DNA of 64,000 bases from Halorussus pelagicus (GTDB lineage: Archaea > Halobacteriota > Halobacteria > Halobacteriales > Haladaptataceae): contig NZ_CP035119.1 of NCBI RefSeq assembly GCF_004087835.1, positions 2,294,001-2,358,000 on the forward strand, given 5' to 3'. This document shows, in pieces, positions 5,495 through 12,101 of the stretch (position 1 is the first letter of the stretch; each line of letters opens with the position of its first letter). The notes under the pieces were generated by a model. It worked only from the letters and a program-made list of their open reading frames with translations. It did no database searches and was not told where the DNA came from. The position numbers and the translations under genes were made by a program.

Positions 5495-5548
5495 TCTGTG
5501 ACGACTTCGACCGACACGCTTTTGCCGTCAGCCGGGCCAGATTGGCAC

Positions 5549-6934
5549 ATGAACTCCCTCTACGCCGTGTCGCCGCTCGACGGCCGGTACGCCGGTCGGA
5601 CCGAACCCCTGCGCGAGTACGCGAGCGAGGCCGCGCTCATGCGCGCTCGCGTGCGAGTCGAAGTCGAGTATCTGGTCGCGCTGGCCGACCTCGACGCGAC
5701 CCCGCTGGAACTGGCCGCCGCGGACCGCGACCACCTGCGGAGCCTCTACGAGGAGTTCGACGAGGACGACGCCGACCTCGTCAAGCGAATCGAGACCGAG
5801 GGCTACCGCGACTACTCGGCGACCAACCACGACGTGAAGGCCGTCGAGTATTTCGTCCGCGAGAACCTGCCCGAGGACACAGCGGATGCGTCTTCGTGGA
5901 TTCACTTCGCGCTGACCAGCGAGGACGTGAACAACCTCGCCTACCGCTTGCTGGTGAAGGGCGCTGTCGAGGACGTTCTCCTGCCGGAACTCGGCGAAAT
6001 TCGGGACGCGCTCGGAGACCTCGCCCGCGAGTACGCGGACGTGCCCATGCTCGCGCGGACCCACGGCCAGCCAGCGACCCCGACCACCTTTGGCAAGGAG
6101 ATGGCCGTCTTCGCCTCGCGCCTCGGCCGCGCCATCGGTCGCGTGAAAGAGGCCCGCGACGGACTTCAGGGCAAACTGGCTGGCGCGTCGGGCACCTACG
6201 CGGCCCACGTCGCGGCCTACCCCGACGTGGAGTGGTCCGCGTTCGCTGGGGAGTTCGTGGAGGGACTCGGTCTCGAACGGGCACCGCTCACGACGCAGGT
6301 CAACCCCTGCGACGACCTCGCGGAACTGTTCGACGCCCTGCGCGGGGCGAACAACGTCCTGCTCGACTTGGACCGCGACGCGTGGCGCTACGTCAGCGAC
6401 CGCTACCTCGGTCAGGAGGTGACGGAGGGCGAAACCGGTTCCTCGACTATGCCCCACAAGGTCAACCCCATCGACTTCGAAAACAGCGAGGGGAACCTCT
6501 CGAAAGCCAACTCGGACCTCGTCTTCCTCGGCGACTACGTCACCTCGTCGCGGCTTCAGCGGGACCTCTCGGACTCCACGGTGAAGCGAAACGTCGGCGC
6601 GGCGTTCGCCTACTGCCTGCTGGGCTACGTCAAGTTGCAGGCCGGACTCGGCAAGGTCGTGCCCAACGAACAGGTCATGCGCGAGGACTTGGACGACACC
6701 CCCGAAATCATCGGCGAGGCGGTTCAGACCATCCTCCGGCGCGAGGGCCACGACGACGCCTACGAGCGCGTCAAGGACCTCACGCGCGGCCAGCGCGTGA
6801 CCCTCGAAGACTTCCGTGACCTCTTTGCGGACCTCGACGTGGACGAGGCGACCCGCGAGGAACTGCTGGACCTGACGCCCGCTGGGTACACTGGCGTCGC
6901 CGGAGCGATGGTCGAGTCGCTGGGCGGGGAGTAA
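5549..6934 (+). CDS. purB: Adenylosuccinate lyase
   Basis: 461 residues, normal length. It releases fumarate from SAICAR and from adenylosuccinate in purine and AMP synthesis. The fumarase/aspartase superfamily signature SSTMPHKVNPIDFEN holds the mobile catalytic serine loop. The general acid-base histidine lies in ARTHGQPATPTTFGKE, and TSEDVNN is the third conserved region. The start ATG gives the typical MNSLYAVSPLDGRY N-terminus of this enzyme. It is divergent from purNH with a shared promoter region. Confidence 0.95.
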   Translation: MNSLYAVSPLDGRYAGRTEPLREYASEAALMRARVRVEVEYLVALADLDATPLELAAADRDHLRSLYEEFDEDDADLVKRIETEGYRDYSATNHDVKAVEYFVRENLPEDTADASSWIHFALTSEDVNNLAYRLLVKGAVEDVLLPELGEIRDALGDLAREYADVPMLARTHGQPATPTTFGKEMAVFASRLGRAIGRVKEARDGLQGKLAGASGTYAAHVAAYPDVEWSAFAGEFVEGLGLERAPLTTQVNPCDDLAELFDALRGANNVLLDLDRDAWRYVSDRYLGQEVTEGETGSSTMPHKVNPIDFENSEGNLSKANSDLVFLGDYVTSSRLQRDLSDSTVKRNVGAAFAYCLLGYVKLQAGLGKVVPNEQVMREDLDDTPEIIGEAVQTILRREGHDDAYERVKDLTRGQRVTLEDFRDLFADLDVDEATREELLDLTPAGYTGVAGAMVESLGGE

Positions 6935-8114: not shown

Positions 8115-8555
8115 GTGAGCGATAGCGTTTACTTTGGTCTCTTCATCGTCGGCATCTTCCTGCTGACCGGCGCGCTCGTCGTCGGCGTCGGCGCGCTTGA
8201 GTACGAAGTCACGTCGCTGGGCACCGTCAAAGAGGTCCCCGACGACACCGAGTCGCTGGTCGTCTACGACAGTCTCTCGGAGCGCGACCGCCAAACTGTC
8301 CAGCGCGTCCTCGCGGGCGAGCGACTCGTCGTCCGCGACCCGACCGAACTGCCGGGACCGCGGAAGACGAAGGGGAAGTTAGCCGTCCAGCGCGACGGCG
8401 AGACGTATCTCGTCACTCGCCGCGTCTTTTTCAACTGGCGGACGAAGTTCGGCGCGAGTTCGATAGCGATGGCCGCCGCGGGTCTGCTCGCGGTCAGCGA
8501 GGCCGTCCGGCGACAGCACTTCCCTCACCGAACCGTCGTGTGGACGCGGCGCTGA
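8115..8555 (+). CDS. Small membrane protein of unknown function
   Basis: 146 residues, family not recognised. A transmembrane helix (about residues 6-28, FGLFIVGIFLLTGALVVGVG) is followed by a hydrophilic domain of about 85 residues with SLSERDRQTVQRVLAGE, and a second, weaker helix near residue 115 (SSIAMAAAGLLAVSEAV). The layout suggests a membrane-anchored protein with one globular loop. The GTG start is set by the TATA box at 8088-8095 (leaderless). It lies between the toxin-antitoxin pair and the halocin-like gene; no functional link is shown. Confidence 0.65.
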   Translation: MSDSVYFGLFIVGIFLLTGALVVGVGALEYEVTSLGTVKEVPDDTESLVVYDSLSERDRQTVQRVLAGERLVVRDPTELPGPRKTKGKLAVQRDGETYLVTRRVFFNWRTKFGASSIAMAAAGLLAVSEAVRRQHFPHRTVVWTRR

Positions 8556-8591: not shown

Positions 8592-8744
8592 TCAGGCGTT
8601 GACCTCGAATTCGTCAGTGATCGTGACCGCGGGCGGGTGTAGCTCCAGTCGAGGTTCACGCTCTCGTACCAACCAAGACGTTGATGCTCTGGCTCCCGTC
8701 GTGAGTGCCGAGCGGGCCGTATCGTTGAGGTCGGCGTTACCCAT
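8592..8744 (-). CDS. 50-residue protein divergent from the halocin-like gene
   Basis: A short gene beginning MGNADLNDTARSALT and ending TDEFEVNA. No family is recognised and there are no cysteines or membrane segments. Support comes from its promoter: a minus-strand TATATTAG (complement of 8771-8778) stands about 30 bases before the ATG, giving a leaderless transcript, and the shared 77-base AT-rich region faces the halocin-like precursor. It could be a regulator or accessory peptide of that gene, or unrelated. Existence is likely but unproven. Confidence 0.45.
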   Translation of the reverse strand: MGNADLNDTARSALTTGARASTSWLVREREPRLELHPPAVTITDEFEVNA

Positions 8745-8821
8745 ATCGTTCTCAGAACACCACATAATATCTAATATACAAAACACCAAATTAAAGTTTT
8801 TAGAGTTTACATCTTAATCTG
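8745..8821. promoter_or_regulatory. AT-rich divergent promoter of the halocin-like gene
   Basis: A short AT-rich region between two divergent ATGs. ATTAAAG (8790-8796) is the likely plus-strand TATA, about 27 bases before the precursor ATG at 8822. TATATTAG on the minus strand (complement of 8771-8778) serves the 50-residue gene. Both transcripts would be leaderless. Confidence 0.55.
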
Positions 8822-9688
8822 ATGTCCGAGGATAATGTAGATAGACGGGACGTATTGCGAGGAATGGTTGGAACCGGCATGGTCGGGCTCGGTTCGACGT
8901 TCAGCGTGTCGATGGCGGCCGCTGACGGGTCAACCGCCGATCCCGTCACCATCCTCGAAGATGACCAGAAGTTCTCGCTCGCACGGGACCTCGCCGACAC
9001 GACGGCGTTCGAGATGTTGCTCGCCAAGGCGGACAAGTTGGGATATAGCTTCAAATGGAGTGCGGACAACCTCTTTGCGGCCCGAACTGAGACCGAACAA
9101 CTGAAGCGGGAAGTCGTTGAGTACCGTCTGGACGAACCGCGCGAGAACGTGGATGCGATGATAGTCGTCGCTCGGGACATGGAAGCCGACACCGTTGAGG
9201 TTGCAACGTTGGACCTCGAATACCACACCGCCGAGGGGCTGTGGCTCAAAACCGAAAAATACGAACTTGTCGATGGTGCCATCGAGCAACGGACGCTCGA
9301 ACCCGACGGCGACGCGCTCCAGCGTGCGATTGACGAACTGGAGGCCGGTCGGGAGGCAACCACCGCACAGGACGGCGTTACGACGCAAGTTGACCTTCCA
9401 GACGTTATCAAAGTAAACGAGTGTAGCCAGTGTTACGAAGCCTCCAAACTGCTCTGTACCGCTGTGTGCAACGCTGGAGGAACGCTCAGTTGTCTGCTTC
9501 TCGGTATCACAGTCGTTGGCAGCATCGCGTGTACGACGTTCGTGAAGGCGGTCTGTTTCGTCGCCAAGAAGGCTTCCGGCTGTGGTAATCGGGTCGCGGC
9601 CACCATCTGCAAGCCATCCGGTATCGGTGCCTGCGGACCAGACCAGAAGCCCGGCGGCATCATCCAAATTGACATTCCCTACCTGTAA
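8822..9688 (+). CDS. Halocin C8-like microhalocin precursor
   Basis: 288 residues. A Tat signal (RRDVLRG at residues 8-14, hydrophobic part to about 34) is followed by a domain of about 165 residues and a cysteine-rich C-terminus. Ten cysteines at 201, 204, 212, 216, 224, 237, 245, 254, 263 and 271 give spacings 2-7-3-7-12-7-8-8-7. As I recall halocin C8, its spacings are 2-7-3-7-13-7-8-8-5, with a shared LLGIT after the fifth Cys and SGCG at the eighth. In halocin C8 the C-terminal peptide is the antimicrobial and the N-terminal part (HalI) gives immunity. A 17-residue tail after the last Cys is extra. No transporter or protease gene adjoins it. Confidence 0.85.
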   Translation: MSEDNVDRRDVLRGMVGTGMVGLGSTFSVSMAAADGSTADPVTILEDDQKFSLARDLADTTAFEMLLAKADKLGYSFKWSADNLFAARTETEQLKREVVEYRLDEPRENVDAMIVVARDMEADTVEVATLDLEYHTAEGLWLKTEKYELVDGAIEQRTLEPDGDALQRAIDELEAGREATTAQDGVTTQVDLPDVIKVNECSQCYEASKLLCTAVCNAGGTLSCLLLGITVVGSIACTTFVKAVCFVAKKASGCGNRVAATICKPSGIGACGPDQKPGGIIQIDIPYL

Positions 9689-9743
9689 TTCCGGCTCTGC
9701 AGACTAAAGTTAGCTCCTCGTTTGCTGTCTTTTCTTCTTCGAC

Positions 9744-9977
9744 CTAAGGGAAAAGAAAGCTTATCAGGTCGAGGACCGTCTGTCTGGTCTGTTCGCCGGA
9801 TAGTCGGAATACGAGGGCCATCATCAGGAACGCCCCGAGGCCCGCAATTACTGCTGACCCGAACCGTGAGGAGGTCGGCTCAGTCAGATACCACGTCACA
9901 CCTGTCACGGCGGCGAATACCAACATGAAGACCCACTGTTGGCGCGTGTACCTGAACGATTTGGGTCTGTCAGCCAT
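9744..9977 (-). CDS. Two-helix membrane protein beside the halocin-like gene
   Basis: 77 residues with two predicted transmembrane helices (about 15-31, WVFMLVFAAVTGVTWYL, and 40-58, SAVIAGLGAFLMMALVF) and a basic N-terminus, so both ends probably face the cytoplasm. Family not recognised. It converges on the halocin-like gene with 55 bases between stops. Small two-helix proteins are common as immunity or export helpers for peptide antibiotics, but here that is only inference from position. Confidence 0.55.
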   Translation of the reverse strand: MADRPKSFRYTRQQWVFMLVFAAVTGVTWYLTEPTSSRFGSAVIAGLGAFLMMALVFRLSGEQTRQTVLDLISFLFP

Positions 9978-10041: not shown

Positions 10042-11181
10042 TCACGTCAACAGCGCCGCCAGCGTCTCCTCGATAGCCTCGCCCGCGCGTTCGACCTCGG
10101 CGACCCGGACGTACTCGCGGGGCGCGTGGGCCACCGCGCCCTCGTCGTCGGCCAGCGACCCCGGACCGAACACGACCGTCGGCGCGACCTGTGCGAAGTA
10201 GGATGCCTCCGTCGCGGCACCGAACGGCCGGACGTTCCCGCCGCTGGTCTCTCGGAGCGTCGCCGCCAGTTCGCCCTCCGCGGGCGTCTCGAACGCCGCC
10301 AGAAACGGCGTGTCGCGCTCCGCGAGCGCCACCTCGACGCCGACGGCCTCCGGCGCATGCGCCCGGAGGTGCGTTTCCAGCGCCTCGCGGAACCCCTCGG
10401 CGGTCTCCGGGGGCACGCTCCGACGGTCCACGACGAACGAACACTCGGCGGGCACCTGATTCGTCGCGGTACCGCCCTCGATGGTCGTCGGCGTCAGCGT
10501 TGAGTCGCCCAGCGCGTCGCTCGCGTCCGGGCGGTCTTCCCGGTCGTCGAAGGTGTCGAGCGCCCCGCTCGCGGCTTCACCGCTCGTTCGAGGCGTCTCC
10601 GACGCCTCGCTCAGCAGGTCGCCCGCCGCGCGAACCGCGTTGACTCCGGACTCCGGTTCCGCGGCGTGAGCGTTCGCGCCCCGGACCGTGACCGTCGCCT
10701 GAAACCGCCCCTTGGCCGCGTTGCACACGTCGAGTTCGGTCGGTTCGCCAACGATGACGGCGTCGGGTTCGGGGTCGAAATCGAGGGCGGCCGCGCCGGT
10801 CGAGTTCGTCTCCTCGTCGGGCGTGACGGCAAGCGTCACCCGCCCGCGCTCGACTTCCGCACCGAGGAACGCCGCGAGTATCGCCGCCAGCGGTCCCTTC
10901 GCGTCGCAGGACCCCCGACCGCGAATCACGCCGTCGTCTCGGGAGAACTCGACGTGGGGCGGCACGGTGTCGATGTGGGTGTTGAGGACGACGTGGGGAC
11001 CGTCGCGCCCGGAGTCTCTGACCGCGACCATGTTTCCGGCGTCGTCCACCGAGACCCGAACCTCGGGGTCTGCGTCCGCTGATTCGAGCGTTGAGACCAG
11101 CAACTTCCGCATCTTGGTCACGTCCTCGTGAGAGGGCGTTTGCACCGCCGCTTCGAGGAACTCGACTGAGTCGAAACTCAT
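10042..11181 (-). CDS. dapE: M20 peptidase: succinyl-diaminopimelate desuccinylase
   Basis: 379 residues. It would remove succinate from N-succinyl-LL-diaminopimelate. Metal ligands of the M20 family are visible: NTHIDTVPP (His and Asp), SCDAKGPLAA, and the catalytic Glu in TPDEETNSTGA. A dimerisation domain begins after GRFQATVTVRGANAHAAEP. The family also contains ArgE-type deacetylases, but position as last gene of the lysine operon fixes the assignment. Its ATG overlaps the dapF stop by 4 bases. Confidence 0.88.
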   Translation of the reverse strand: MSFDSVEFLEAAVQTPSHEDVTKMRKLLVSTLESADADPEVRVSVDDAGNMVAVRDSGRDGPHVVLNTHIDTVPPHVEFSRDDGVIRGRGSCDAKGPLAAILAAFLGAEVERGRVTLAVTPDEETNSTGAAALDFDPEPDAVIVGEPTELDVCNAAKGRFQATVTVRGANAHAAEPESGVNAVRAAGDLLSEASETPRTSGEAASGALDTFDDREDRPDASDALGDSTLTPTTIEGGTATNQVPAECSFVVDRRSVPPETAEGFREALETHLRAHAPEAVGVEVALAERDTPFLAAFETPAEGELAATLRETSGGNVRPFGAATEASYFAQVAPTVVFGPGSLADDEGAVAHAPREYVRVAEVERAGEAIEETLAALLT

Positions 11182-12101
11182 GCTTCCGAGAGTCGCCGCG
11201 GTTCCGGCGTGGAAGCAATCTCGCCCTCGAACTCGCGTTCGGCGGGACCAGTCAGACTGGCGCGCTCGCCGTCGAACGCCACGCCGAGGCGACCGCCCGG
11301 CGGGAAGACCGCGACGGACTCGGCGTCTTCCTCGACCTCGCCCAGTCGTCGCGCGACCGCCGCGATTGCGACCGCGCCGGTGCCGCAGGCGCGGGTCTCT
11401 CCCTCGACGCCGCGCTCGTAGGTCCGCTGGTCGAAGGTCGCCGTCTCCGCGCTGTCGCCCTCGTCTCGACGGGATGCGAACGTGACGTTCGCGCCATCCG
11501 GGAACACGTCGGCGCGGCGAACCGCCGGGGCCACCGCGTCGAGGGCCACCTCGTCCACGTCTTCGACGAACGCGACGCCGTGGGGGACGCCGGTGTTCAC
11601 CGCGGTCAGTTCGACGCCCTCGATGGTCTCCTCCAGTAGCGGCTCCTCGCGGTCGGCCGCGAGAGGAACCTCTTCGGGCGCGAACGACGGCGCGCCCATC
11701 TCGATGGTCACCTCGTCGTCCGCGATTTCGGCCCGGCGCGTCCCGGCCTGCGTGTCGAGCATCACGGTGTCGGCACCGGTTCGCTCGGCGGCCCACTTCG
11801 CGGCACAGCGCGCGCCGTTGCCGCACATCGCCGCGGTCGAACCGTCGGGTTGGACCAGCGTCATCACCGCCCGCGGCGGCGAGAAATTGGGTTCGAGCGC
11901 CAGAAACAGCGTGCCGTCGGCACCGACCGACTCCGAACTTTTCCCCTGCTCGGCGGCCGCGCCGCCGTCTGTGAGACGCACGCCGTCGCGTCGGTCACAC
12001 ACTTCGCGGGCGAACGCGCCCCGGTCGGGGACGTACTCGTCCGCGTCTACTACTACGAAATCGTTGCCGGTGCCGTGAAACTTCTCGAATTCGATGCTCA
12101 T
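11178..12101 (-). CDS. dapF: Diaminopimelate epimerase
   Basis: 307 residues. It interconverts LL- and meso-diaminopimelate. The N-terminus has FHGTGNDFVVVDA, and the two catalytic cysteines lie in AAMCGNGARCAA and RACGTGAVAIAA, one in each symmetrical half. An insertion of about 15 residues rich in Gly, Ala and Glu follows GVRLTDGGA. Fifth gene of the operon, overlapping lysA and dapE by 4 bases at either end. Confidence 0.95.
   Translation of the reverse strand: MSIEFEKFHGTGNDFVVVDADEYVPDRGAFAREVCDRRDGVRLTDGGAAAEQGKSSESVGADGTLFLALEPNFSPPRAVMTLVQPDGSTAAMCGNGARCAAKWAAERTGADTVMLDTQAGTRRAEIADDEVTIEMGAPSFAPEEVPLAADREEPLLEETIEGVELTAVNTGVPHGVAFVEDVDEVALDAVAPAVRRADVFPDGANVTFASRRDEGDSAETATFDQRTYERGVEGETRACGTGAVAIAAVARRLGEVEEDAESVAVFPPGGRLGVAFDGERASLTGPAEREFEGEIASTPEPRRLSEA

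Follow-up and report, generated by a model that had tools for sequence, protein, structure and literature searches.

The window, a 64,000-nucleotide stretch of the Halorussus pelagicus genome, carries at 8822-9688 (+) a frame for a 288-residue protein that resembles the precursor of halocin C8. To its left lie purB, encoding adenylosuccinate lyase (5540-6934, +), which anchors the site, and a gene for a 146-residue membrane protein (8115-8555, +) that forms the left border. To its right, 55 nt downstream and on the opposite strand, stands a gene for a 77-residue membrane protein (9744-9977, -), followed by a dapE-like M20 peptidase gene (10042-11178, -), our right anchor, and then by dapF (11178-12101). 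A frame of 50 codons beginning with ATG (8592-8744, -) completes the arrangement. The initial annotation had read the 50-residue frame, the precursor and the 77-residue gene as a minimal halocin cassette with no recognisable transporter or protease, and all three frames do exist at these positions.

Scanning the genes between 5540 and 15054, we likewise saw neither a transporter nor a processing protease. The families recognised there are those of purB, M20 (dapE-like), dapF, a PLP decarboxylase (lysA-like), THDPS_N/hexapeptide (dapD-like), TumE and HTH, while three frames, for the 146-, 50- and 77-residue products, have no family above cut-off. The M20-type peptidase is presumably of the cytoplasmic, biosynthetic type. 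Of the 18 genomes of the genus, 14 carry between one and three copies of the gene for the 146-residue membrane protein, which is also without a Pfam match above cut-off. Beside purB, on the minus strand, are a TumE-family toxin gene (PF20126, 7668-7946) and an HVO_A0114-type HTH gene (PF25212, 7033-7467), which likely form a toxin-antitoxin pair; copies 89% and 86% identical lie beside purB in another Halorussus genome (G124, L140).

The halocin C8-like precursor and its relatives

The 288-residue precursor is built of two parts. A PF22862 domain covers residues 45-148 (E 2.4e-24, 86.4 bits, cut-off 27) and is joined through a linker to a C-terminal TIGR04449 (halocin_C8_dom) domain at residues 201-267 (E 3.6e-9, 37.5 bits, cut-off 24). 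The N-terminus holds the twin-arginine motif DRRDVLRG at residues 7-14, with a hydrophobic stretch and then AAA after it; by eye, these stand in register with the rest of the family. The C-terminal part has ten cysteines (C201, 204, 212, 216, 224, 237, 245, 254, 263 and 271), nine of which are invariant in a 19-row alignment and one, C237, nearly so. The frame is intact and the invariant positions of PF22862 are retained. The sequence thus bears out the proposal of a halocin C8-like precursor with a start of the Tat type, and the protein is new but otherwise unexceptional within a family already known. An AlphaFold model built on five alignment rows has a mean pLDDT of 55.4 and is confident only at about residues 41-160, where the N-terminal domain is predicted to form two helices followed by six strands. 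With this partly confident model, Foldseek returned no PDB match at E <= 0.001, the best-looking match being 3msw with a TM score of 0.39 by target length, and a PDB search by sequence gave a single match at E 0.21.

Of 392 genomes searched from the order, 26 contain PF22862, 19 of them above cut-off. In the 19-row alignment the nearest relative of the window precursor is that of Haloferax larsenii (49% identity), followed by those of Natrinema and Haloterrigena (47%), Halobacterium (45%) and Halorussus itself (43-45%). A tblastn search of plasmid records gave nine matches of 42-45% identity over 98-100% of the query and four of 38.6% over 83%. In the tree, five other Halorussus halocins form a clade that excludes the window halocin with support of 99/98. 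The window copy sits on a long branch (1.09), and the tree does not resolve its nearest group.

Putative halocin C8 genes of Halorussus are already in print (PMC11509114). With halocin C8 of Natrinema and related organisms (ProC8/HalC8), the window gene shares a precursor in two parts, of 283 residues in the same published account and of 288 here, with a Tat-type start, a PF22862-type N-terminal part and a C-terminal part of ten cysteines. However, the window precursor is only about 34% identical to a group of 283-residue precursors (G248, G331a and G376a) that equal ProC8 in length and that we infer to be halC8 itself.

The genome of the window contains a second PF22862 gene, 0.75 Mb from the first (G000:C1:1556739-1557038, L055). 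Its site, adjoining an AMP-binding/acyl-CoA ligase-type gene, is common to five Halorussus genomes. In three of the other four a gene for a membrane protein of 239-243 residues follows, with a weak similarity to GIDE that stays below cut-off; it was not seen in G066. This second halocin gene and its Halorussus orthologues share the two-part make-up of the window gene, but occupy another site and belong to another lineage in the tree.

Replacement of a resident gene at the purB-dap site

The site between purB and the dap genes could be compared with that of other members of the genus. In one of them, G118, the order is purB, the 146-residue gene, a gene for a 354-residue protein with a twin-arginine start (here p354), the 77-residue gene, the dapE-like gene and dapF, and the 19 kb read at this site contain no halocin gene. 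The TumE and HTH genes are not at this site either. The comparison took in the purB sites of 16 further Halorussus genomes (L067, L135-L140 and L142-L150); a seventeenth, G171, 62% complete and with no true purB match, was left out, and G124 is comparable only in part, its purB and 146-residue genes being on different contigs and dapE beside neither. The 146-residue gene is kept here across much of the genus. Of the 16 sites, seven have a complete or almost complete p354, one (G118) has the 77-residue gene and none has a halocin gene.

At the nucleotide level, homology to the G118 site ends at about position 8750 and restarts at about 9748, which is the stop end of the 77-residue gene. The intervening segment of about 997 bp (8751-9747), in which we found no homology to the G118 site, consists of the halocin gene and its short flanks and stands where the G118-like site has about 750 bp, made up of the 5' part of p354 and an intergenic stretch. 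What remains of p354 is a pseudogene remnant at 8611-8750 (-) with 89.5% DNA identity to the gene of G118, of which about 218 nt are missing in the window between 8608 and 8611. In pairwise alignments with each of five relatives the remnant shows three single-base deletions; a multiple alignment confirms them for three of the five, the rows of G108 and G176 being wrongly cut there, so that for these two the pairwise alignments alone apply. The p354 protein matches no Pfam or NCBIfam family above cut-off.

This decay accounts for the 50-residue frame, which had been annotated as a gene and lies inside the decayed 3' end of p354. Searching 99 genomes for p354, we recovered from the genome of the window a single piece of 23 residues at 74% identity (8659-8727), which falls within the coordinates of the 50-residue frame and is read in another frame. 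The homologous DNA of the five relatives encodes p354 and not the 50-residue frame, which is accordingly not conserved. Frames of 50-80 residues beginning with ATG number 69 in the window, real genes included. We therefore reject a gene at this place: what the frame covers is the 3' end of the 354-residue gene, put out of frame by the deletions.

The base composition of the segment differs from that of its surroundings. Its GC content is 0.54-0.57 versus 0.63-0.73 to its right, and the GC3 of the halocin gene is 0.685 versus 0.83-0.88 in the 146-residue gene, purB and dapF. Low values also occur outside the segment, in the resident 77-residue gene (GC3 0.705) and in the TumE stretch on the left (GC 0.56), and the contrast is therefore a weak sign of foreign origin. 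Repeats at the borders, whether direct or inverted, amount to short, chance-like pairs, and thus no mechanism of insertion can be named. The likeliest reading is nonetheless that the window halocin came in from outside and was not inherited vertically within the genus.

Small membrane proteins at halocin loci

The 77-residue protein belongs to a real family. Its homologues in G118 and G201 are 47% and 43% identical and have motifs in common with it, and the comparison with G118 gives pN 0.24 and pS 0.49, both uncorrected. The description of the protein as two-helix is less firm. A Kyte-Doolittle plot (19-residue window, threshold 1.4) has one clear hydrophobic segment at residues 37-62, and an earlier segment at about residues 14-31 stays below the threshold; a second helix is likely, though not secure.

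It had further been suggested that the 77-residue protein might be a second immunity factor, to be checked by whether its gene always accompanies halocins. Among 384 genomes its profile has eight strong matches (at least 41 bits) and four weak ones (21-23 bits). Four of the eight strong genomes contain PF22862, above cut-off in the genome of the window, G118 and G238 and below it in G277. The two genes are linked in the window alone; in the other three genomes they lie on different contigs. Thus seven of the eight strong genomes have the gene without PF22862 nearby, one of them, G118, at the syntenic site within the same genus. The family therefore does occur apart from halocins, the kind of finding named beforehand as refuting the cassette, although with eight of 384 genomes it is not widespread. 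Conversely, of 23 halocin loci the profile matches that of the window alone, and the other 22 have no 77-residue gene in the stretch read. A tblastn search of plasmids gave no match to the protein. Linkage to halocin genes across species, as expected of an immunity gene, is thus absent. Within genomes the two do co-occur more often than at random, since three of the eight genomes with the 77-residue gene have a halocin above cut-off versus 19 of 392 overall (Fisher p 0.005, the 19 coming from a search of 392 genomes and the eight from one of 384, in two genera and with relatedness uncorrected). We regard this as weak counter-evidence to a solitary halocin gene, and the 77-residue protein could conceivably have a role in trans, as the halocin of G118 sits on another contig.

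Halocin loci elsewhere have small membrane proteins of their own. We compared neighbours within 6 kb in 21 halocin loci and then searched, with profiles, stretches of about 13-25 kb at 23 loci, comprising 21 of the 25 PF22862 places above cut-off and two Halobacterium plasmid records. Two families emerged, which we call A (66-74 residues) and B (70-79 residues); A is present in 15 and B in 14 of the 23 loci, counts that include several closely related loci and many that supplied profile rows and so match by construction. Four low-scoring places outside this set (G161, G159:C86, G332 and G041:C2:186731) have neither in the stretches read, bringing the tallies to 15/27 and 14/27. A lies directly downstream of the halocin gene in some loci, on the same strand and after a gap of 8-24 nt (G064, G241 and Halobacterium GSL-19), and B is often divergent upstream. 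The Haloferax larsenii plasmid holds both, and there, as on the Halobacterium GSL-19 plasmid, A follows the halocin gene by 19-24 nt with B divergent upstream, whereas the window has neither. The two families are seen, for example, at L041:8221-8427 and L041:9473-9700 and at loci L161 and L162. Two A and two B proteins that were scanned have no Pfam match above cut-off, and the published passages reached by word searches hold no description of either family.

The two families differ in how closely they follow PF22862. In 322 genomes A has eight strong matches (at least 85 bits), all in PF22862-positive genomes, seven of which had supplied rows to the profile; four further genomes match weakly. 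B matches 33 of the 322, most of them without a PF22862 gene, as is also the case for the strong-B genome G251. B is less tied to PF22862 genes than A. Adjacent A-like and B-like genes also occur where no PF22862 gene was called (G248:C1:1526697-1527209, G072:C1:1269840-1270196 and G080:C1:1457362-1457715, the A matches of G072 and G080 being weak), and such pairs may go with another type of precursor. Seven halocin loci (L040, L042, L043, L045, L046, L047 and L060) have a larger cluster in common, with A, B, a 534-residue membrane protein (one was scanned and has no Pfam match) and ABC-type ATPase and permease genes recognised by eye. Five of these loci also have an HTH regulator. The loci of the G248, G331a and G376a group carry the HTH regulator, the 534-residue protein, A, B and the ABC-type genes, the last again by eye; we saw none of these next to the halocin gene of the window.

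All six main Halorussus halocin loci, the window included, proved to have neither A nor B (6/6); for the window this holds over the first 25 kb scanned, and the second halocin gene and its orthologues are likewise without both. Neither family was found at the Haloterrigena salina locus (L051), which lies near a contig end. A and B resemble neither each other nor the 77-residue protein. Comparing the 77-residue profile with theirs by hhalign, we obtained probabilities of 2.1% for A and 0.16% for B, with profiles that are small and shallow, and on this comparison membership of the 77-residue protein in either family was rejected.

Proposed working of the locus and rival readings

Sun 2005 and Mei 2008 reportedly deal with the immunity conferred by halC8. 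According to published accounts, halC8 encodes a precursor of 283 residues, which Tat exports and from which maturation yields an immunity part, HalI, and a peptide of 76 residues (PMC11509114); the protease acting on HalC8 is described as unidentified, and the serine protease HlyR4 activates HalH4 (PMC12893001). The suggestion that the window locus is self-contained, with immunity supplied by the N-terminal domain and export by Tat, fits this precedent. Elsewhere the genome of the window has three TatC stretches and 13 PF00082 (S8 protease) stretches above cut-off, so the lack of a transporter or protease at the locus itself is no puzzle.

We propose, at a probability of roughly 0.8, that the halocin C8-type gene of the window stands alone, was probably gained by horizontal transfer and occupies a replaced p354 site; it would have an immunity domain of its own, with export and maturation provided from elsewhere in the genome. 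The gene would have landed between the 146- and 77-residue genes of the purB-dap site, displacing part or most of p354. By analogy with halC8, the precursor would fold and leave the cell by Tat, and the linker between the PF22862 part and the ten-cysteine peptide would be cut by a protease whose gene lies at another place in the genome or in a neighbouring cell. The released peptide would then attack related archaea, and the PF22862 part would presumably protect the producer. The 77- and 50-residue frames would have no necessary part in this working.

The precursor could alternatively be a decaying or silent relic without function. In favour are the relic state of the adjoining p354, the long branch of the window copy and the lack of A and B at the Halorussus loci. 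Against it, the frame is intact, with its start of the Tat type, its full set of ten cysteines and the positions that are invariant in PF22862, and we consider this reading unlikely. Another reading is that the 77-residue protein was recruited after the arrival of the halocin and provides immunity, or part of it, in place of A and B. Halocin loci of other genera do have the small membrane proteins A and B, the window has the 77-residue gene just downstream and neither of these, and the co-occurrence within genomes (3/8) points the same way. Against this, G118 has the gene at the same site without a halocin, the gene is on the strand opposite to the halocin, its product has no profile similarity to A or B, and the five other Halorussus halocin loci have no such protein adjacent and no A or B. 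Recruitment is therefore quite improbable. Its more elaborate form, with A and B serving export or immunity in other genera, Halorussus halocins dispensing with them and the resident 77-residue protein taking over that job here after the halocin had landed, strikes us as a shade more doubtful still.

The three-gene cassette of the initial annotation, with the precursor bracketed by two functional partners, has the adjacency of the frames in its favour and is hardly credible, given that one partner is a fossil of p354, that the family of the other is unlinked to the remaining 22 halocin loci, and that G118 has p354 rather than a halocin between the same neighbours.

Preferring a solitary gene removes a false lead, namely that a halocin gene and a membrane protein gene for immunity form a cassette here. 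The best lead lies instead in A and B, proteins of about 66-79 residues that lie near the halocin C8-like genes of several genera and were not found with those of Halorussus. Their absence from the Halorussus loci raises a testable question, namely whether the N-terminal domain of the precursor is by itself enough for immunity. The window also provides an example of how a halocin gene may come to occupy a site, by replacing a resident gene for a secreted protein.
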